Assembly (NCBI GenBank): GCA_024278835.1
Contig: JAJRSK010000033.1
Span: 62,001 to 126,000, forward strand
Direction of reading: 5' to 3'
DNA from: Campylobacterales bacterium
GTDB taxonomy: Bacteria; Campylobacterota; Campylobacteria; Campylobacterales; QNZT01
DNA length: 64,000 nucleotides
A program made the translations under genes and the position numbers. Below the pieces are notes generated by a model, which worked only from the letters and a program-made list of their open reading frames with translations, had not been told where the DNA came from and ran no database searches. Positions 1,609 to 18,252 of this stretch are shown piece by piece (the first letter of the stretch is position 1; every line of letters begins with the position of its first letter).

Positions 1609-4600
1609 TTAAACCTTAACTATTCCAAACTGATCACTATACTCATACGAACTATCTTCATAGTAGCCAAAACTCAACTCCCCATACTTTATAGAAATAG
1701 CTCTTTTAGATTTATCGAACTTTTCTACCAAAGTATTATAGTCTCGTTTCAACCATAACCCTTTTTCCACCTCATCATCAATCTCTATCTTATTTATCTG
1801 TAAAATCTCTTCTCTTTTTATGATATTATCATATCCCTCTATTTCACAAAACGAATAGGCTTTATCATCTTCATCATAAACCAAAAAAACTTTTTGTGTT
1901 GGTTCACTCTCTCTAAAAGGGTGTAAGTATTGTGGGTGTGCTGTCAAAAACCAATTCTCATCTAAGTAGCCTTGCAAACCTGTTGCTCCCTTTTTATCAT
2001 AAGCGGTCAAAGCCTTTTGCGTTTGATAGTGCTCCAAATCACTCAATGATGATTTCTGCTTTAGCTTTTTAGGCTTCATAATCCTTACTGTAGAATCCAA
2101 TCGTTCATAAAGAGCTTTTGTATCTACCAATTCATTCATATTATGCGTTTCTAATGTTATACCTTCTTCATAACCAGGGTATTTAAAATAACTTTTTCCC
2201 TCTTCATCATTTTCTTTAAAAGCTTTGTAGTTATACTGCATCAGTGCAATATTTGGTTTTAAAACTTCTCCAAGCCTATGTCTTCTAACACGCCCTGCTA
2301 ATTGAATAACAGAACGATACGAAGAGGGTTCTATCACTGCCCAATCAAAATCATGGTCTCGCCCCACCTCTTCTACGGGTGTTGCTACTACAACAAAAAT
2401 AAGATTATTGGTTTTACACCTATCTAAATGAGAACAAATAACCTCATCTTTAAAAGCTTCTGGTGCTTCCCCCTCTTCCTCTTTTCTTTTTAACACCTTC
2501 TCCAAATAACGCTCTTGGTCTTGTCGTAAAAGCAATACTTGATTAGAATGATACGCCATCACTTTCAGTTCAACACCCTCACACTCTTCTTTGGCTAAAA
2601 ACTTTGCCAGCGCCACACAAGGTCTAATGTTTGCCATACGCACCACACCAAATGAAACACGAATACCTGTTCTCTTATCTACTGTATGATGAAGCTTGTG
2701 TTTTTGAACAATTGCACTTTTTATTTTAGAAAAATAGTGTTCCTCTTTACTCCCTTGCTCATCAAATTCACTCTCTTGCATCTGCTCTTGACACTCAACT
2801 ATCTCTACTTTTCGTTTCACAGGTTCTAGCTTTAGGTTTGAAATGCGTTTTTTTATAAACTTTGTATGCTCATCTTTGTAGTTCTCTACAGCTTGTACAC
2901 TCTTTGCAGCATGAATTAACGAAACTTCTGTTTTAAACTCATCAATCCATGCACAAACTATCTCATTTTTAGCCTTTCGTGTTTTACAAAAGAGTTGCCA
3001 CCCTTTTTTATAAGCATTAAAATACCCCTCTGCTAAATCAGGGGGAATAGTAGCAGATGAAATCATCACTTTTCTACCAAGCATCCCTGCAAGATGAATT
3101 AGCCGTCCTATGGCAATAAGATCAGAACCTGCAAAATCATCTATCTCATCAATCACCAAATCAGAACTCATCAAACGCAAAGAAGGCAAGATATACTTGC
3201 CCCCTCTTTTTGTTTCTGTAGCACCCATAAGGTGGTCAATAGTACAGACCAAAACAGGCGCATATAGAAAGGCTTTATCTTTTGGTTTTTTGAGTACCGT
3301 AGCCAATCCTTCATCAGGAATATCCGAATCAAAATCTATCCACTCATCAAGTAGTGATTCATTAGACTCTGAACCATAATTTTCTACAGATTCAAGCACC
3401 TCTTTTTTATCTCGATTATGTAATTCCAAAATAGCTTTAGAACCTATCAACACAGCCAATTCATTCTCATCTAAACCAATACGCTCTCTATATTCATCAC
3501 CCGTTTGCAAAGTAAGTGTTCTAAGTCCTAAAGCCAATACATACCGAAGAGTATCTTTCTCCTTGGCTATGCACTGCATCACTTTAGCATTAGCAAAAGT
3601 TTTTCCACAGCCTGTACTTGCCATATTGACTGCAAAAAAACCTTGATTACTACTTGTTTCCATAAAAGGTTTTAGTTTGCTAACAGCTCTATCTTGCCAA
3701 TCAAAAAGTTTTGGGCTTCTCTTTTTTAATATCCTATTATCTTCAACCAATGGTGACTCTTTTTCAAAGGCAGGCAAAAGATGAACCGTTTTTAAAGCAC
3801 TTTTCATCACACCACAAAGATGTTCATCAAGCTGCTGTTTTAGTTCTTTCGTTTTTGGGTCAGTATTGGCAAAAAGTCCTTGCGTATCTTCCCAACCCAT
3901 ATCAGCATCACAAGAAGAGTAATAATGATCACCTAACATCAATGCCAATCGAGCATGATGCAAAATTACTCTATAACTTCCATCTCCCATCGCCTCTTCC
4001 AATAAATGCAAAGAACCAAGTAGTCGATTTGACCACCTTTTAAGCTCTTTTTTCCACTTGATAGAAGAACTAAGCAAGCCATTTGGAAATTCAAAACATT
4101 GATTTAAACGATTTTGATACTCCTCTTCATCATATCTATTTTCATATCCCCAAGATTGCAATATGTACTCAAAAATATCATCAAGAGAGTTAGCTTCCAC
4201 GCCATTCCACTCTCTTTTAAGCTCATCTTTTTTAGTTAATGCACTTGGTAAGCGATGATGTGCAACAATCAACCACATAATCAACTTTACAGAGTTTGGG
4301 AGATGATGCAACACTCGCTTATCAACATCTTTTATACTCTCTTTTAAGTCCTCCTCATCTATATCACCCTTAACTAAAGCATTTAACCAACCCTCTTCAC
4401 TCTTCTCATTTTGTACTACAAAAGCGTGAAGTAACATGCATGAAATCCACTCATGACGAATAGGATCACCTTGCTTGGTAGAAGATTTTAATTTTTCTTG
4501 AAAAAGCTTGGTAGATTTTCCCCAATCATGAAATAATGCAGACAAAGCAGTAAGTGCTTGAATAAGTGGTAAATATCTCCAATCACTCTCTTTATAATTA

Positions 4601-4896
4601 TCTAAAATAGTTTTTTGCGTTCTATGCACTGGCACAATCCCCTCTTCATTAAACATATCCTTATTCCCAACTACCCATAAAAATTCACTTCTACTTCGAC
4701 TCCGTATCCAGTGGCAACTTACAGCCGTATTCTTAGAAGCAGTTTTTCTAAGCAGTTTTTTTACAGCATTTAATCCCTCTTGTGTGATGATAGTTTGCCA
4801 TGTATTATCTCCTATTCTGTTTGCAAAACTATCTAAAACTCTTCTTGTTTTTTTAAGTGCATTTTTCTCACATTGGGAGATGAAAGTTACCATCAT
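1609..4896 (-). CDS. cas3: Type I-F Cas2-Cas3 fusion nuclease-helicase
   Basis: A 1095-residue effector and adaptation protein of the type I-F system. The first 95 residues correspond to the Cas2-like domain fused to Cas3 in this subtype. An HD nuclease domain follows (H123-D124 in LFHDWGK, H148, H213-H214), then a superfamily 2 helicase: Walker A STGCGKT near 427-433, Walker B DEID near 583-586, motif III SSAT near 613-616 and motif VI GRVRRHR near 900. All key motifs are present, so the gene looks intact. In the family it degrades DNA unwound at the R-loop made by Cascade, and with Cas1 it takes part in spacer acquisition. Its start codons (two successive ATGs) overlap the cas1 stop by four bases, so the two are translationally coupled. 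Confidence 0.95.
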   Translation of the reverse strand: MMVTFISQCEKNALKKTRRVLDSFANRIGDNTWQTIITQEGLNAVKKLLRKTASKNTAVSCHWIRSRSRSEFLWVVGNKDMFNEEGIVPVHRTQKTILDNYKESDWRYLPLIQALTALSALFHDWGKSTKLFQEKLKSSTKQGDPIRHEWISCMLLHAFVVQNEKSEEGWLNALVKGDIDEEDLKESIKDVDKRVLHHLPNSVKLIMWLIVAHHRLPSALTKKDELKREWNGVEANSLDDIFEYILQSWGYENRYDEEEYQNRLNQCFEFPNGLLSSSIKWKKELKRWSNRLLGSLHLLEEAMGDGSYRVILHHARLALMLGDHYYSSCDADMGWEDTQGLFANTDPKTKELKQQLDEHLCGVMKSALKTVHLLPAFEKESPLVEDNRILKKRSPKLFDWQDRAVSKLKPFMETSSNQGFFAVNMASTGCGKTFANAKVMQCIAKEKDTLRYVLALGLRTLTLQTGDEYRERIGLDENELAVLIGSKAILELHNRDKKEVLESVENYGSESNESLLDEWIDFDSDIPDEGLATVLKKPKDKAFLYAPVLVCTIDHLMGATETKRGGKYILPSLRLMSSDLVIDEIDDFAGSDLIAIGRLIHLAGMLGRKVMISSATIPPDLAEGYFNAYKKGWQLFCKTRKAKNEIVCAWIDEFKTEVSLIHAAKSVQAVENYKDEHTKFIKKRISNLKLEPVKRKVEIVECQEQMQESEFDEQGSKEEHYFSKIKSAIVQKHKLHHTVDKRTGIRVSFGVVRMANIRPCVALAKFLAKEECEGVELKVMAYHSNQVLLLRQDQERYLEKVLKRKEEEGEAPEAFKDEVICSHLDRCKTNNLIFVVVATPVEEVGRDHDFDWAVIEPSSYRSVIQLAGRVRRHRLGEVLKPNIALMQYNYKAFKENDEEGKSYFKYPGYEEGITLETHNMNELVDTKALYERLDSTVRIMKPKKLKQKSSLSDLEHYQTQKALTAYDKKGATGLQGYLDENWFLTAHPQYLHPFRESEPTQKVFLVYDEDDKAYSFCEIEGYDNIIKREEILQINKIEIDDEVEKGLWLKRDYNTLVEKFDKSKRAISIKYGELSFGYYEDSSYEYSDQFGIVKV

Positions 4897-5855
4897 GATA
4901 GAGTATTGCCATCCTTACTATAATGCCTTGAAGCCTCTTTTATCTGGTTAAACATAAAATCCAAAGCTTTATGATTTACAAAGTTTTGCAAACATTGCGA
5001 GCGAAACTCTTTTTCACTCATCTTCTCTTTTGCACAGATAAATGCCCATGGTAAAACCAAAGCATCTTTTATCAAGTCAGCCACATCAAAAACCAAAGCA
5101 CCTCGTCTAGTTTTCCCATGCATCACAGCAAACCCATGAGGGATACCAAGCACCCAAAGAGTAGTTGCTCCTAAACCATAGGCTAGATAGTTTCCATGAT
5201 TTAAAAAAGCATTGGCTTCTTCGGCGTTACTATGTTCTCGTACAAAACCTATCTGATCTGTTTTTTTAGCTGCATATTTATAAAGTTTTTTCGTGAGATC
5301 TGCTTCAAGTTGAAGAAGTTTACCTACATTGTAAGCAGTTGGAATCTCTTCAAGTGCCTTTGTAAACATGGTTTGTAACTCAGTATCTTCTATATCAAAA
5401 CCTTCAAATTGAAGATTTCTATCTTTTCCCCATACCTTTTTTATAAATTCTATACGGGAAATTTGCAATCTTTTTGCTGTTTCAAGCCTTTTGCTTTCAT
5501 CAAACCAAAACTGCATCCAACCCTGAACATACTCTGTAGGACGATATTCACTTTGAGGGGTCATCCACTCTATCTCAGTTGCCATCAAAAGAGGAGTAGC
5601 ACCACTACCAGAAAAACCTACCAATACACCAGCTTGTGCCAGCATCCGCATCGCTGCATGGGTGATAGATGTACCTGTTCCTAAAAGCAGACATGTGGTG
5701 TTTGCTATAGGTATATTCCAGTATTGATACTCTTTTTTTGCTTCGCTTAGATAGAGAATTCTACCATCTTTTTGCATAACTCTGCACTTTTCAAGATAGT
5801 AGATATTGGCTCGTTTGGAGTGCAGTATAGCTTTTAAGTCTGTGAGATTTTCCAT
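4893..5855 (-). CDS. cas1: Type I-F Cas1 integrase
   Basis: A 320-residue spacer-acquisition integrase. The metal site expected of Cas1 is present as E184 (QLEAD), H246 (MHGKTRRG) and D257/D260 (FDVADLIKD), spaced as in Pseudomonas Cas1, and the length fits the subtype. It is the first gene of the minus-strand operon. GGGAAAT precedes the ATG at 5855, and the stop overlaps the cas2-3 start. Cas1 forms an integration complex with the Cas2-3 fusion and inserts new spacers at the array leader. Fossil toxin-antitoxin genes lie directly upstream, so the promoter is either in the short 5856-5907 gap or further upstream through the debris. Confidence 0.95.
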   Translation of the reverse strand: MENLTDLKAILHSKRANIYYLEKCRVMQKDGRILYLSEAKKEYQYWNIPIANTTCLLLGTGTSITHAAMRMLAQAGVLVGFSGSGATPLLMATEIEWMTPQSEYRPTEYVQGWMQFWFDESKRLETAKRLQISRIEFIKKVWGKDRNLQFEGFDIEDTELQTMFTKALEEIPTAYNVGKLLQLEADLTKKLYKYAAKKTDQIGFVREHSNAEEANAFLNHGNYLAYGLGATTLWVLGIPHGFAVMHGKTRRGALVFDVADLIKDALVLPWAFICAKEKMSEKEFRSQCLQNFVNHKALDFMFNQIKEASRHYSKDGNTLS

Positions 5856-12860: not shown

Positions 12861-13028
12861 TCACCCCTTCTCCTCCCACAGCCCACACTCCTTGCCACTA
12901 TCTTTTCGTACCTGTTGTGAGGGAATCATCTTGGAGACAAATCCAAATGCCTTGCATCCATGCGGTGTGGCGGGTTTCCACGTGACATAGTAGTACTTAC
13001 ATCGTACACAATTAACTCTTTTTTGCAA
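12861..13028 (-). CDS. Small Cys-rich protein (55 aa) with CxxC, TTG start
   Basis: Read from TTG at 13028 to TGA at 12861. AAGGAG sits seven bases before the TTG, and the start overlaps the end of the GMC oxidoreductase gene by 17 bases. The protein has NCVRCKYYYVTW, then GCKAFGFVSK, then SGKECGLW: four Cys residues in CxxC, C, C order, which suggests a tiny zinc- or iron-binding domain. I recall comparable short proteins in Campylobacterota with the same CKAFGF-SK-PS and SG-x-x-C pattern but know no function. Translational coupling to the GMC gene makes it likely real. Confidence 0.6.
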   Translation of the reverse strand: MQKRVNCVRCKYYYVTWKPATPHGCKAFGFVSKMIPSQQVRKDSGKECGLWEEKG

Positions 13029-14667
13029 GTTTCAACTCCTTTTTGATGACTTCCGCTACACGGAAACTATTAGCATATATCGTCCATGTGTAGGGGACTG
13101 AACCCCCTGTTGGCATAAAACTCCCATCAGTGACAAAGAGATTTTTCACCTCATGTGCCCTGCACTCCTTGTCAAGTACTGATGTTTTAGGGTCATTACC
13201 AAAACGACAGCCTCCTGATTGTAAGTTTTGAGGTGGGTAGGGAGAGATGCCTTCTGAGATATCTTTTGCACCCATCGCTTCAAGGATTTTTCGTGTTTTT
13301 TTCGCGATTTTTTCCCCTACTTTGACATTTTCGGGATGTGCTCCTATGCGTATTTTAGCCACAGGAGAGCCAAACTTATCATGATAGTTCTCATCTACAC
13401 TTACAAAACAGTCATCATTGGGCAACCAATCATTAAATATCTCAAAAGTTAACATCTTTTTTTTATTGAATTTCTCGTATATCTTCGCTTGAAGTGTTTC
13501 ACCCCAGATAAGACCATTTCCTTGCCACTTTTGTTTGTTGGCTTTGACTATCGGATTAGCATGCTCAAAAAGTGCTTCTGAAATCCCCCCTTTTTTACCA
13601 TCCAAAAAGTACCAATCTTTGATCGTCCGATTGACAAAAAGCCCCTCTACCATCAATGACTTCAGTGGTATCACACTCTCATCAAATGTCCCACTCACCA
13701 CGCCCCCTCCTGAAAAGAGAAGATTTTTTCCCACCTCTCCACTGTTATTTGCCAAGCCATTTGGAAATGCTTTTGACTTAGAATTTAACAACAATCTCGC
13801 ACTCTCTACTGCCTGTGCTGCTAGGACAAAAATCTTGGCTTTTACGCGCTTCTCTTTGCCTTCTTCATCGATGTATGCCACTTCTGTGATGCGTCCCTCT
13901 TTATCATGATAGAGTTTTTTGACAAAGGCTTTTGTGCGTATCTCAAGATTTCCATTTTTTAAAGCAGGTTGCAATAAAGCAGCGCGTGCAGAGGATTTAC
14001 CCCCAGAACTACAGCCATAACTCCCACAATAATTCGAGTAATAACAGGGATTTCTCTCCCCCTTTGCCACAGGCAATATCGCCCGTGGCGTTTTCACTGC
14101 TACCACGCCTTCTTTTTTAGCTGCCTTATCGATGTACGAAGAGATAGGATGTTCTTGCGTAGGTGGATAGGGGAAGTTTTTCGTACTGCGTGGTTCTTGA
14201 TACTTAAAAGGCGTCACATCACCACTCACCCCCACGATTCGTTCTACCTTCTCATAAAAAGGCTCCATATCATGATAGCTTATAGGCCAATCTACGATAT
14301 TTGCCCCCGCTATCTCTCCAAATTCACTTTTGAGTCGAAAGTCTTTAGGGTGCAAACGGTGAAAAAATCCACTCATCAAGTTGGATGAACCACCCACAAT
14401 ATTGCCATTCCAAAAATCCCAGCCAGAGGTATACGTCGGTGTGACCACCCATTCCCCATCTTCTTTATCCTCTATCAGGTGATACTCATCTTTGAGCTTT
14501 GGGGTGATGATAGAACGCCGGCAAAAGGCTATCTCATCTTTAGAAAAATCCTCTTCATTGTAAAAATCTCCTTTTTCCAAGATAAGCACTTTAGCACCAG
14601 AACGACTTAACTCATACGCGATAGGTGCAGCGCCTGCCCCTGAACCGATGATACAGATATCAACCAT
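13012..14667 (-). CDS. GMC-family FAD oxidoreductase (large subunit)
   Basis: A flavoprotein of about 551 residues. The FAD-binding Rossmann motif IIGSGAGAAPIAYELSRSG begins at residue 5, NIVGGSSNLMSGF follows the first fold, and the C-terminal GMC motif includes CRFGNDPKTSVLD and the final NLFVTDGSFMP-TGGSVPYTWTIYANS. Relatives are membrane-anchored sugar, alcohol or choline dehydrogenases that act in the periplasm with a small subunit-3 partner. That partner is encoded directly upstream with an eight-base overlap. ATG at 14667 is chosen because it starts right before the nucleotide fold and has TTTGGAGC upstream. Four TATCATGATA copies fall in this pair of genes. The substrate is not predictable. 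Confidence 0.88.
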   Translation of the reverse strand: MVDICIIGSGAGAAPIAYELSRSGAKVLILEKGDFYNEEDFSKDEIAFCRRSIITPKLKDEYHLIEDKEDGEWVVTPTYTSGWDFWNGNIVGGSSNLMSGFFHRLHPKDFRLKSEFGEIAGANIVDWPISYHDMEPFYEKVERIVGVSGDVTPFKYQEPRSTKNFPYPPTQEHPISSYIDKAAKKEGVVAVKTPRAILPVAKGERNPCYYSNYCGSYGCSSGGKSSARAALLQPALKNGNLEIRTKAFVKKLYHDKEGRITEVAYIDEEGKEKRVKAKIFVLAAQAVESARLLLNSKSKAFPNGLANNSGEVGKNLLFSGGGVVSGTFDESVIPLKSLMVEGLFVNRTIKDWYFLDGKKGGISEALFEHANPIVKANKQKWQGNGLIWGETLQAKIYEKFNKKKMLTFEIFNDWLPNDDCFVSVDENYHDKFGSPVAKIRIGAHPENVKVGEKIAKKTRKILEAMGAKDISEGISPYPPQNLQSGGCRFGNDPKTSVLDKECRAHEVKNLFVTDGSFMPTGGSVPYTWTIYANSFRVAEVIKKELKLAKKS

Positions 14668-15130
14668 GTTTTGCTCCAAATCTAAACTTAGGACGCGGTA
14701 CGCCCGCATTGTGATGAAAACTTTTCCAACCTATTTCCTTTTTATTACCACCATATAGTGGATCACAAAAAAGTGCTTCTAATGTATAGTTTATCATAAT
14801 AGATATCCAGTTTTCTCCCAAATGACTCTCTCCAAAGGTCTGTAAAACCTTCTCTTTTTCATCATCTGTGAGTATCGTTTTATAGCCACTTTTGCGCAAC
14901 TCACTCGCCCCACGCAAAATAAAATCCAAATCATCTTTATCAAAGCTATCATGATAAGCAACCATCTTGAGATAACGCGTCGCTTCAAACTCTTTAGCAC
15001 TTGGATACTTCTTCGTTTTGGGAAATAGATGCACTTGTACACTCTCTATGAGTAACCAAGTATCCTCCTTTTTGGCACAAGCCACCGTAGTAAATACGAC
15101 AGGTAAAGTTAAAAACTCGCGTCTTTTCAT
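14660..15130 (-). CDS. Gluconate 2-dehydrogenase subunit 3-like protein with Tat/lipoprotein signal
   Basis: A 156-residue protein starting MKRREFLTLPVVFTTVACAKK: a twin-arginine motif (RREFL), a hydrophobic stretch and a lipobox-like VACA. This fits export folded through Tat and lipid anchoring. The mature part (IESVQVHLFP, then FLDPLYGGNKKEIGWK-like FCDPLYGGNKKEIGW) matches gluconate 2-dehydrogenase subunit 3 proteins, which accompany and export GMC-type dehydrogenases. Its 3' end overlaps the GMC gene. It is transcribed away from the GKCG-peptide genes, and the 126-base divergent gap carries an inverted-repeat operator candidate. Confidence 0.85.
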   Translation of the reverse strand: MKRREFLTLPVVFTTVACAKKEDTWLLIESVQVHLFPKTKKYPSAKEFEATRYLKMVAYHDSFDKDDLDFILRGASELRKSGYKTILTDDEKEKVLQTFGESHLGENWISIMINYTLEALFCDPLYGGNKKEIGWKSFHHNAGVPRPKFRFGAKHG

Positions 15131-15166: not shown

Positions 15167-15225
15167 GTACATTTGTGTAGTCACTTCAAACACTACACAA
15201 ATAGTACATAATAAAAGATTATAAT
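15167..15225 (+). promoter_or_regulatory. Inverted-repeat operator plus -10 box in the divergent gap before the GKCG-peptide genes
   Basis: GTACATTTGTGTAGT (15167-15181) and ACTACACAAATAGTAC (15192-15207) form an inverted repeat with a 10-bp perfect core (TTTGTGTAGT) and a ten-base spacer. A TATAAT follows at 15220-15225, twelve bases further on, and serves the plus-strand peptide gene. The right arm CTACACAAATAGTAC recurs with one mismatch ten bases before the -10 box of the lipoprotein gene at 24240-24791, so it looks like a regulator site in the -35 zone. Confidence 0.55.
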
Positions 15226-15256: not shown

Positions 15257-15526
15257 ATGAAGAAGATATTAACAACTTCAATTTTAGCATTTGCCACCGT
15301 GGCATTTTTAGGTATGAGCCAACTCTCAGCAGGAGAGGGAATGAAATGTGGCGCAGGTAAATGCGGTGATAGCCCAAAAGCGATGAAATGTGGTTCTGGT
15401 AAATGTGGCAATACAACCAAACCGATGAAAGGAAAGTGCGGTTCTGGAAAATGTGGTGCAACAGAAAAACCAGCTAAACCAGCACCAAAGTCTACAGGTA
15501 AATGTGGCGTTGGTAAGTGTAGTTAA
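15257..15526 (+). CDS. Secreted GKCG-repeat peptide, HvfA-like RiPP precursor 1
   Basis: An 89-residue protein with a Sec signal peptide (MKKILTTSILAFATVAFLGM, cleavage near QLSA/GEG). The mature part is almost only a degenerate repeat: MKCGAGKCG, MKCGSGKCG, KGKCGSGKCG, TGKCGVGKCS, giving eight Cys residues in K/G-K-C-G context. This composition matches HvfA-type precursors, whose GKCG Cys residues are turned into copper-binding thiooxazole groups by an MNIO (DUF692) enzyme in Haemophilus and relatives. A copper- or metal-buffering role is inferred. AAGGAG precedes the ATG. A second such peptide follows after 18 bases. No MNIO gene is visible in this window. Confidence 0.8.
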   Translation: MKKILTTSILAFATVAFLGMSQLSAGEGMKCGAGKCGDSPKAMKCGSGKCGNTTKPMKGKCGSGKCGATEKPAKPAPKSTGKCGVGKCS

Positions 15527-15544
15527 TAAACAAAGGAACATAAA

Positions 15545-15835
15545 ATGAAAAAATTACTATTAAATTCGATTTTTGCCTTGGCATTAGTGTCATTGGCGGG
15601 GTGCTATGGAACTAGCGCTAATGTAGACAATGGTGTAAAAACAACAAAAGGCATGAAATGTGGCACTGGTAAATGCGGTAAAAGTATGAAATCTGGTGCT
15701 GGCTGTGCGTCTAAAGCAAGCAAATGTGGTGATGCCAAAAAAGCAACGAAATGTGGGGCAAGTGCTAAGTGTGGTGATGCCAAAAAAGAGACACCTATGA
15801 AATGTGGCGCTGGTAAATGCGGCAGTGCAAAATAA
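15545..15835 (+). CDS. GKCG-repeat lipoprotein, HvfA-like RiPP precursor 2
   Basis: A 96-residue paralogue of the preceding peptide, but with a lipoprotein signal (LVSLAGC, lipid attachment at the Cys about residue 19). The mature part has MKCGTGKCGKS, GAGCASKASKCGDA, TKCGASAKCGDA and MKCGAGKCG: eight Cys residues besides the lipidated one. A free and a membrane-anchored version of the same Cys-repeat peptide encoded side by side suggests one soluble and one tethered metal ligand in the periplasm. AAAGGAAC precedes the ATG. A long hairpin follows before the DoxX gene. Confidence 0.8.
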   Translation: MKKLLLNSIFALALVSLAGCYGTSANVDNGVKTTKGMKCGTGKCGKSMKSGAGCASKASKCGDAKKATKCGASAKCGDAKKETPMKCGAGKCGSAK

Positions 15836-15844
15836 TAACAACTA

Positions 15845-15874
15845 AAGTATAAGAAGTCAGTTCTTCTTATACTT
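15845..15874 (+). terminator. 12-bp hairpin between GKCG peptide 2 and the DoxX gene
   Basis: AAGTATAAGAAG and CTTCTTATACTT form a perfect 12-bp stem with the loop TCAGTT. It lacks a U-tract and is followed at once by the AAGGAG of the DoxX gene, so it may attenuate rather than end transcription, favouring high peptide output over the downstream enzymes. Confidence 0.6.
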
Positions 15875-15888
15875 ATAAGGAGAACACA

Positions 15889-16326
15889 ATGTTAAAACAA
15901 CTTTATAGCGAAGTCGTTAGGTTACTCTCAAACCTACAAAGTGTGGCACTTTTGTTAGCCAGACTAGCCGTAGCATATGGATTTTATGAGCCAGCGATGA
16001 TGAAATGGTCAGATATAGGTTCTGTGGCAGATTGGTTTGGCTCTATGGGTATACCCTTTCCCACACTCAACGCCTACATGGCAGCAACAACGGAGATAGT
16101 TGGTGTGGTACTGCTTACCCTTGGACTGTTTACAAGGATTATCTCACTCCCAATGATGGTTATCATGATAGTAGCAATTAAGACCGTGCATTTGGCACAT
16201 GGTTTTTCTGCCGGGGACAATGGCTTTGAAATTCCACTCTATTATATGCTATTTTTACTCATCTTTGTGGCTTTTGGCGCAGGAAAGTTTTCTTTGGATC
16301 AACTTCTTTTTAAAGATGAAAAGTAG
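15889..16326 (+). CDS. DoxX-family membrane protein (HvfD-like position)
   Basis: A 145-residue inner-membrane protein with four hydrophobic segments (about 18-34, 62-85, 88-105, 118-135). The first has LARLAVAYGFYEPAMMKWSD, and the centre has TEIVGVVLLTLGLFTRI, the usual DoxX pattern. DoxX relatives are quinone-linked or redox membrane partners. In HvfABCD-type clusters the DoxX member (HvfD) accompanies the GKCG precursor, so the context repeats that arrangement. The stop codon TAG is immediately followed by the ATG of the next gene. One TATCATGATA (16161) encodes Ile-Met-Ile in a membrane helix. Confidence 0.85.
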   Translation: MLKQLYSEVVRLLSNLQSVALLLARLAVAYGFYEPAMMKWSDIGSVADWFGSMGIPFPTLNAYMAATTEIVGVVLLTLGLFTRIISLPMMVIMIVAIKTVHLAHGFSAGDNGFEIPLYYMLFLLIFVAFGAGKFSLDQLLFKDEK

Positions 16327-18027
16327 ATGGAAGAGCTACTCCAGCATGGCGGTGCATTGATTCATAATGACTGGGGAGAGTTTTTTAAGGGGCTTTCCTT
16401 GATGCTTCTTTTTTTACTCTTTCTGTTTTTCATCTATGATAGATTTGTGCAGCGAAGCAATCAACTGCTTATCAATTACCCTCTTATAGGGCGAATGCGT
16501 TATCTTTTTTATATGTTACGAGCCCCTATGCGTCAATACTTTGGCGATGAGCAGTTTTATGATACGTATGAAAAGGTGGACTGGGTAAACAAAGCCTCCT
16601 ATGGTAAAAAGCTCTACTACTCCTTTTCCCTCACCAAACCTAGCAATCCGGATACGTCCAAGTTTGTCCATGCCAATAGTGTGCTCAACCTTGATGAAGT
16701 GCAAGAGAGCTTCCAAGTAACCTTTGGAGAGAGACAAAAGTGTCCCTTTACCAGTAAAAGCATTATCGGACGTTCTGCCATGAGTGATGGTTCTATCTCC
16801 CCAGAAGCGACACAATCCTTTTCTAAAGCAGCTTTCATGGGTCACTTTCCTATCAACACAGGAGAGGGGTCACTCACCACCAATTTTCTCACGACCCATG
16901 CCTGCTCGGTGGCTATGCAAGGCAAGTCTTATTTAGAAGTGCATCGAGGTACATTTTTTGCACGAGGTATTTACAAAATCACCAAATTCTTTTTTAACAA
17001 AGAGATTTCCTCCTCGCTCTATCGTACTTTAGTGATTAAAAAAGAGCAAGAGACGTATAACTTTGATGAGAGAATTCATGCCTTTTACAGGGTAGATTGG
17101 TCAAAGCCACTTTCAACATTCCCACAAGATATCTGTGACATCCCCGATATCATCTTTCAGATGGGTTCAGGGCTCTATGGTGTGAGAAATGACAAAGGAG
17201 AGTTTGACGCAGAACGTTATCAAAAAGTGATGCGTTTTTGTAAAATGACAGAGATAAAGATAGCCCAAGGAGCCAAACAGACAGGGGGAAAACTCTTGGC
17301 AAAGAAAGTGACAGAGGCGATTGCTTACTACCGTGGGATACCAGTTAACAAAGACCTCATCTCCCCAAATCGTTTTCCTTATGCCAGTACACTCACAGAA
17401 TTATTTGATTTCGTGGGAAAATTACAAAGCCTTTCAGACAAACCAGTCGGCATCAAAATCGTCCTCTCTACCAAAAAGAATTTTGATGCTTATGCCGATG
17501 CACTTTTACAACACATTCAGACACATCAACCTTATCCTGATTTTCTCACCATAGATGGTGGAGATGGTGGGTCTGGCGCAGCACCCATGGAGATGATGGG
17601 ACGCATAGGTCTTGGCATCCATGCGTCCTTGGATATCGTCATAAGTGCCTTAGAAAACCGTGGTATCAGAAAAGATATAAAAATCATCGCCTCTGAAAAA
17701 GTCCTCACACCAGACGATGTGATAGAACTCTTTGCATACGGAGCAGACTTTATCAATATCGCTAGAGGGTTTATGATATCCGCTGGTTGTATCCGCGCAC
17801 GTGAATGTTCAGGAGCCAACGGCAAAGATTGTCCCGTAGGCATCGCCACGATGAATGAGATGAAACGTTCTAAGTTTCTCATAGAGCAAAAATCTCACAA
17901 CATCACACACTATCATGATAGCCTTCTTCAGGGAGTAAAAGCCCTCATGGCTGTGATGGGGAAAAAGCATTTAAGGGAGATTTCTAAACACGACCTTATG
18001 ATAAATAGTAAAATTTTATTGACTTAA
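16327..18027 (+). CDS. FMN-binding glutamate synthase-like protein with N-terminal membrane helix
   Basis: A 566-residue protein. Residues 18-40 form one transmembrane helix, after which the chain carries a GltS/GltB-type TIM barrel: GEGSLTTNF near 177, QMGSG and KIAQGAKQTGGKL near 275-325, LTIDGGDGGSGAAPMEMM near 413-430, and CIRARECSGANGKDCPVGIAT near 491-511, which are the FMN-binding and Fe-S-like loops of glutamate synthase relatives. It lacks the glutamine amidotransferase domain, so it cannot make glutamate from glutamine by itself. It is directly coupled to the DoxX gene and could be the oxidoreductase that acts with the GKCG peptides. That role is inference. Confidence 0.85.
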   Translation: MEELLQHGGALIHNDWGEFFKGLSLMLLFLLFLFFIYDRFVQRSNQLLINYPLIGRMRYLFYMLRAPMRQYFGDEQFYDTYEKVDWVNKASYGKKLYYSFSLTKPSNPDTSKFVHANSVLNLDEVQESFQVTFGERQKCPFTSKSIIGRSAMSDGSISPEATQSFSKAAFMGHFPINTGEGSLTTNFLTTHACSVAMQGKSYLEVHRGTFFARGIYKITKFFFNKEISSSLYRTLVIKKEQETYNFDERIHAFYRVDWSKPLSTFPQDICDIPDIIFQMGSGLYGVRNDKGEFDAERYQKVMRFCKMTEIKIAQGAKQTGGKLLAKKVTEAIAYYRGIPVNKDLISPNRFPYASTLTELFDFVGKLQSLSDKPVGIKIVLSTKKNFDAYADALLQHIQTHQPYPDFLTIDGGDGGSGAAPMEMMGRIGLGIHASLDIVISALENRGIRKDIKIIASEKVLTPDDVIELFAYGADFINIARGFMISAGCIRARECSGANGKDCPVGIATMNEMKRSKFLIEQKSHNITHYHDSLLQGVKALMAVMGKKHLREISKHDLMINSKILLT

Positions 18028-18035
18028 TCTTCTTT

Positions 18036-18059
18036 TAAAGTTTCATAAGGTAAACTTTA
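18036..18059 (+). terminator. Hairpin after the glutamate-synthase-like gene
   Basis: TAAAGTTT (18036-18043) pairs with AAACTTTA (18052-18059) around an eight-base loop, followed by TTTATCTT. A plausible weak terminator just before the small lipoprotein gene. Confidence 0.45.
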
Positions 18060-18084
18060 TTTATCTTAATTAAGGAGAAATGTA

Positions 18085-18252
18085 ATGAAAAAATTACTTT
18101 TAGTAAGTTCAGTATTAGCAATGTCTTTAGGACTTCTTTCAGGTTGTAGTTATAAAAAAGCAGATACTTGTACTGCAAGCAAGATAGTATACCCGGATTG
18201 TGTACCTTGTACTAACGTATCACCAAAACCTTGCAGACCATGCAAAAGATAG
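18085..18252 (+). CDS. Small Cys-rich lipoprotein (55 aa)
   Basis: ATG at 18085 with AAGGAGAAATGTA upstream, TAG at 18252. The signal ends in the lipobox LLSGC (Cys at about residue 21), and the 35-residue mature part has CVPC, then a C-x-x-C in CRPCKR near the end, plus an upstream Cys. It follows the GKCG-peptide genes on the same strand and is also Cys-rich and exported, so it may be part of the same metal or redox function. No family is recognised. Confidence 0.65.
   Translation: MKKLLLVSSVLAMSLGLLSGCSYKKADTCTASKIVYPDCVPCTNVSPKPCRPCKR

Follow-up and report, generated by a model that had tools for sequence, protein, structure and literature searches.

We analysed a 64,000-nucleotide stretch of DNA from a Campylobacterales bacterium (contig JAJRSK010000033.1, positions 62,001 to 126,000; hereafter the window), in which an operon for cysteine-repeat peptides lies divergent from genes for a flavoenzyme and its small partner. 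The operon begins with two adjacent genes on the forward strand: KCG-repeat peptide 1 (15257-15526), a free, secreted peptide of 89 amino acids with a Sec-type signal and 8 cysteines, and KCG-repeat peptide 2 (15545-15835), a lipoprotein of 96 amino acids with the lipobox LAGC. Both exceed the 19.5-bit cut-off of the HvfA repeat-domain model NF050137 (37.4 and 20.0 bits), while the scores fall short of the equivalog model for full HvfA, NF050188 (25 versus 95 bits). An earlier note on this DNA had described two neighbouring exported HvfA-type peptides, one free and one lipid-anchored, that consist nearly only of KCGxGKCG repeats; the open reading frames bear this out and the repeats are real, though the wording is somewhat generous for peptide 2. 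Because NF050137 matches occur in just 32 of the 298 genomes of the class, and the four in the window genome all fall at the peptide locus, the repeats are not a product of chance. Downstream follow a gene for an HvfX-type DoxX membrane protein (15889-16326, forward strand; PF07681), recognised as DoxX in the earlier note and scoring 122 bits with the HvfX model NF050144 (cut-off 80), and one for a membrane-anchored GltS-type flavin mononucleotide (FMN) protein (16327-18027, forward strand; PF01645, Glu_synthase, 204 bits).

The unit extends further than the earlier note had drawn it. On the reverse strand, separated from peptide 1 by a 126-bp gap, a divergent gene pair (13012-15130) encodes a GMC flavoenzyme (13012-14709; PF05199/PF00732) and its partner of the gluconate-2-dehydrogenase subunit 3 family, GDH3 (14660-15130; PF13618, 31.7 bits, cut-off 23.4). 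Between GDH3 and peptide 1, in the divergent promoter, lies a perfect 11-bp inverted repeat with an N10 spacer (15171-15202, no strand assigned), ATTTGTGTAGT-N10-ACTACACAAAT. Inverted repeats of equal length arose in only 5 of 3000 shuffles, the strict pattern is found once in the 2.5-Mb genome, and a matching site is present in relatives. The repeat is a likely operator common to the peptides and GMC-GDH3, and the divergent pair belongs to the same unit as the peptide operon.

The peptide and HvfX are already known from Hvf clusters; the enzyme pair is different and is the new part. As in the window, the HvfABCX/oxazolin (Buf_EGKCG) systems of Haemophilus and other Pseudomonadota have a Sec-exported KCG-repeat peptide, an HvfX-type DoxX and tandem peptide genes (PMC13419390, PMC12452194). 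In those systems HvfBC turn the cysteines of HvfA into 5-thiooxazoles that bind copper; the HvfX protein is uncharacterised (PMC13419390). MNIO enzymes are regarded as defining for EGKCG/oxazolin-type copper peptides, and a survey of MNIO clusters offers no explanation for the few genomes that lack it: 67 of 2583 EGKCG genomes are without MNIO, and no substitute was named (PMC12452194). Unlike these systems, the window has neither MNIO nor DUF2063 and carries a GMC flavoenzyme with a GDH3 bearing a twin-arginine translocation (Tat) signal instead; it also adds a second, lipid-anchored peptide and an HvfX-linked GltS-like protein. We found no report that joins GMC or gluconate-2-dehydrogenase subunit 3 to DoxX or EGKCG peptides in the open-access literature searched, which is weak evidence of novelty.

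The absence of MNIO, noted earlier for the locus, holds for the whole genome, which is reported to be 99.99% complete. There were 0 matches to the DUF692 profile PF05114 or to the MNIO protein of a relative, and a search for DUF2063 was likewise empty. MNIO was also absent from 36 further genomes, 32 of them with a KCG-GMC locus and four of them Flavobacteriaceae with this GMC, many being metagenome-assembled and perhaps incomplete.

To place the locus in its class, we looked in the 298 genomes for GltS-like proteins, MNIO, matches to the KCG model, HvfX and GMC enzymes, and then read the neighbourhoods (loci and genomes carry our numbers, L and G). The peptides occur in two housings. In one, KCG is joined to MNIO-DUF2063, often with HvfX; in the other, KCG, usually with HvfX, is followed by or divergent from GDH3-GMC. 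No locus that we read combines MNIO or DUF2063 with GMC or GDH3. Of all loci read, 124 have GMC; 122 of these include GDH3, 61 a KCG peptide no more than 4 kb away, 44 HvfX, 5 the GltS-like protein and 0 MNIO/DUF2063. Of the 11 with MNIO, 11 include DUF2063, 10 KCG, 7 HvfX and 0 GMC/GDH3. By hand tally, 42 genomes have HvfX above its cut-off: 31 with GMC only, 8 with MNIO only, 2 with neither and 1 (G292) with both, the two enzymes there being at different loci. The association and avoidance statistics are far from chance, but the p-values assume independent genomes, an assumption that does not hold. Across all 298 genomes the avoidance is not significant alone (about 2 genomes with both expected, 1 seen), and it is visible only among loci or genomes carrying the peptide or HvfX. 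The HvfX tree requires at least 5 changes between enzyme types, several of its branches being weak; the simplest reading is that MNIO and GMC were exchanged more than once.

Regulation also crosses the two housings: in Campylobacterota the same regulators and operator are found with the GMC type. At GMC-type loci of Sulfurovum and Sulfurospirillum, a TGTGTAG-N9-16-CTACACA operator lies upstream of KCG, and some MNIO-type KCG genes (L102-L105) are preceded by an imperfect site or a CTACACA half-site. In Sulfurospirillaceae-type genomes, one two-component system adjoins both the MNIO type (L102, L104, L105) and the GMC type (L139, L141, L144, L146), with 58-67% identity between regulators and 46-53% between kinases across types. 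The cultured species Sulfurospirillum cavolei also has KCG-GDH3-GMC together with this two-component system, without an adjacent HvfX. MsrP/MsrQ genes likewise adjoin both the MNIO-type L102 and a GMC-type cluster on the Sulfurospirillum plasmid pSulSP. On that plasmid (NZ_CP118374.1, L246:9770-15605), the genes for a KCG peptide, GDH3-GMC, the two-component system and MsrP/MsrQ are packed closely into an island flanked by Tn3/IS elements and toxin-antitoxin genes, and the system there looks mobile. The existing annotation names the two-component and Msr genes and lists KCG and GDH3 as 'hypothetical protein'.

The pair is not restricted to one phylum. Scanning GTDB genome contigs with the GMC alignment, we obtained 544 relatives; the best 80 of the 544, which we read, include Campylobacterota, Calditrichota, Beta- and Gammaproteobacteria and one Flavobacteriaceae genome. 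A KCG peptide adjoins GDH3-GMC in a Gallionellaceae genome (L241), KCG-HvfX-GDH3-GMC are consecutive in an unclassified bacterium (L206), and in a Flavobacteriaceae genome (L238) an EF-hand/KCG lipoprotein is followed by a natural GDH3-GMC fusion. The order KCG-GDH3-GMC is repeated in two more Flavobacteriaceae genomes, one of which (L253) has haem-binding CxxCH proteins behind GMC. Counting such relatives, clusters that have KCG and GMC-GDH3 but lack MNIO and its partner span three or more phyla. Among the Gammaproteobacteria, three loci that lack KCG (L214, L233, L243) have periplasmic thioredoxin-like proteins preceding GDH3-GMC, which hints at thiol chemistry. We also modelled the structure of the L238 fusion; its GDH3 half was of low confidence, and nothing was drawn from it.

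By sequence and by the fold of the predicted model (mean predicted local distance difference test score, pLDDT, 81), the closest solved relatives of the window GMC are fructose dehydrogenase (FDH) and the glucose dehydrogenase that uses flavin adenine dinucleotide (FAD-GDH), at about 25% identity and a template modelling (TM) score of about 0.8. With FDH (7w2j), B. cepacia FAD-GDH (6a2u) and the C. jejuni-type gluconate dehydrogenase, the window pair has in common the GMC fold, the FAD site, the 3Fe-4S cysteines, which are invariant in the GMC alignment, and a small Tat-signal subunit of the GDH3 kind. It departs from FDH and FAD-GDH in its sequence (about 25-30% identity), in its neighbours, KCG peptides and HvfX, and in its active site. 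At the position of the catalytic His (FDH His1147), 119 of 123 family members have Leu (Leu496 in the window), and at the second active-site position (FDH Asn1190) the family mostly has Pro, Ala or Thr; as controls, four gluconate dehydrogenases of the C. jejuni type, from the same class, retain His and Asn. Because both residues are replaced, the GMC enzyme is a dehydrogenase scaffold without the residues that abstract hydride from alcohols. Thiols, whose oxidation would need no such base, are an attractive candidate substrate instead. Profile searches against solved structures gave no useful relative for GDH3, and sequence searches against them gave none for HvfX.

The window GMC has no signal of its own, its true start probably being a Met near 14667. 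The window GDH3 has the Tat motif KRREFL with a Cys that could be lipidated, and RRxF is found in 111 of 122 GDH3 relatives; the pair is therefore expected to function extracytoplasmically, alongside the exported peptides.

We consider it highly probable that GMC-GDH3 is a functional part of the peptide system and stands in for MNIO-DUF2063. The earlier note had left room for a different enzyme that modifies or uses the peptides; the comparative evidence favours this option, the enzyme being the divergent pair that the note did not mention. In the mechanism that we propose, Sec would export the two KCG-repeat peptides, one free and one lipid-anchored, and a GMC flavoenzyme that carries FAD and a 3Fe-4S cluster would, with GDH3, take the place of cytosolic MNIO and its DUF2063 partner. 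As the small subunit carries the Tat signal, the pair should work in the periplasm on peptides already exported. It would most likely oxidise peptide cysteines, by 2 or 4 electrons each or to disulfides in C-x4-C pairs, and electrons would leave via the 3Fe-4S cluster for the respiratory chain, possibly through HvfX, with the GltS-like protein as an HvfX-linked redox accessory. The oxidised product would bind or buffer copper, and a role of the product in handling copper is likely by analogy with HvfA. That the enzyme oxidises the peptide cysteines is, in our estimate, about evenly balanced. We put at much the same level the fuller picture of an MNIO-independent HvfA/oxazolin-type copper-peptide system, in which GMC-GDH3 replaces MNIO-DUF2063 and oxidises the peptides in the periplasm. 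More tentatively, the Tat-exported periplasmic GMC (3Fe-4S) with GDH3 might be a new class of peptide-maturation enzyme, one that oxidises the cysteines of secreted KCG peptides without cytosolic iron-oxygen chemistry and that replaced MNIO-DUF2063 several times in several phyla.

Several points weigh against this proposal. The suggested modification is drawn from gene comparison, not biochemistry. Since roughly half of the GMC loci lack a neighbouring KCG peptide, the GMC family has other or wider roles, and in some genomes KCG or HvfX is sited apart from GMC. With its dehydrogenase fold, the enzyme could still act on a small molecule, and a cytochrome c subunit gene is not among the neighbouring genes of the window, unlike in the FAD-GDH and FDH complexes. 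Lys before Cys is common in both peptide types (52 of 69 MNIO-type and 390 of 423 GMC-type cysteines) and C-x4-C spacing is frequent in both, but Gly after Cys, near-invariant in the MNIO type (65 of 69), is looser in the GMC type (277 of 423), which may mean a different product, or none.

Such points bear on a reading in which the peptides are unmodified thiol metal buffers, periplasmic metallothioneins in effect, and GMC-GDH3 would be a co-regulated stress enzyme with a small-molecule substrate, so that the two share a regulon and not a reaction. The half of the GMC family without a KCG neighbour and the relaxed residue after Cys both suit it, and a shared operator demonstrates co-regulation only. 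We nevertheless consider it rather unlikely, given the either/or pattern with MNIO-DUF2063 at KCG/HvfX loci, the missing alcohol-oxidising His, the abutting or overlapping genes for KCG and GDH3 in L164 and the Flavobacteriaceae in which KCG lies directly upstream of GDH3-GMC. Alternatively, GMC-GDH3 might use the peptide rather than mature it, with the KCG peptide serving as its partner for electrons, thiols or copper, for instance in disulfide or copper redox reactions of the periplasm. The thioredoxin-like proteins before GDH3 in the three gammaproteobacterial loci, the CxxCH proteins after GMC in L253 and the MsrP/MsrQ genes beside the plasmid-borne cluster are in keeping with such a partnership. 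On its own, however, it fails to explain why MNIO-DUF2063 is absent exactly where GMC-GDH3 is present, and we regard it as improbable.

The remaining candidates are other modifying enzymes. MNIO-containing genomes can hold bufferin genes away from their MNIO genes (PMC12452194), and the earlier note had allowed for an MNIO that acts from elsewhere; with the profile and protein searches empty in a nearly complete genome and 36 further genomes with this GMC family also lacking MNIO, we rejected that candidate as largely refuted and extremely improbable. The note had also set the GltS-type FMN enzyme in the place of MNIO, and its gene does follow HvfX directly. This protein has a Glu_synthase FMN domain after an N-terminal membrane helix. 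Its FMN region aligns with that of the glutamate synthase GltB, with three Fe-S-type cysteines present; unlike GltB, it has no detectable glutaminase domain (PF01645 was the only domain found), and a full-length GltS is encoded elsewhere in the window genome. It is a genuine part of the unit, as the note had held: HvfX-adjacent copies in Campylobacterota form one well-supported clade (12 of 13 rows, with the last row truncated where its contig ends). The note had suggested checking the co-occurrence of GKCG peptide, DoxX and GltS-like protein across the phylum; only 5 of 124 GMC loci have the protein nearby. GltS-like protein with HvfX is seen at five GMC loci, at L053 (genome G074) together with a full MNIO cluster, and without either enzyme, and most MNIO-less clusters are without it. 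On this distribution we rejected it as an MNIO substitute, a role that is very unlikely; since it also occurs with a full MNIO cluster, it is an accessory companion of HvfX.

If GMC-GDH3 matures the peptide, it provides a flavin-based way, probably in the periplasm, of making copper-binding peptides; if it is only a user of the peptide, it reveals the role of the peptide after secretion. The cluster suggests a second, unstudied way to make or use cysteine-repeat peptides, in which one specific pair repeatedly replaces MNIO-DUF2063 beside the same peptide, DoxX and, in one family, the same regulators. Either way, the occurrence of HvfX with both enzymes offers a direct test of its purpose.

Variants of the cluster were also seen. 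In L163 (4121-4537) and L164 (4117-4560), a Met- and Cys-rich peptide with KCGxGMMxK repeats, possibly a variant precursor, lies upstream of GDH3-GMC in the place of KCG, its gene overlapping the GDH3-GMC start in L164. L050 (516-3081) and L055 (2716-3090) have a second KCG lipoprotein past the GMC side of the cluster; in L050 it comes directly after a P-type metal ATPase, a neighbour that points to copper. The GMC gene beside KCG-HvfX in genome G132 (L165:4991-6641) is broken into two frames, and a GltS-like remnant of 62 amino acids adjoins HvfX in G199 (L129); both look like decay.

The further Cys-rich lipoprotein that had been noted at the end of the operon is present (18085-18252, forward strand). 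It is tiny and has weak phmmer similarity (E 6e-5 to 0.01) to small lipoproteins near the peptides in the nearest relatives L167, L168, L170 and L171; in L167, L168 and L171 these form small arrays (about 4100-5400). Elsewhere in the window, at 1609-5855, a big Cas3-like helicase and a Cas1-like protein suggest, from reading of the translation only, a type I CRISPR system, perhaps I-F.

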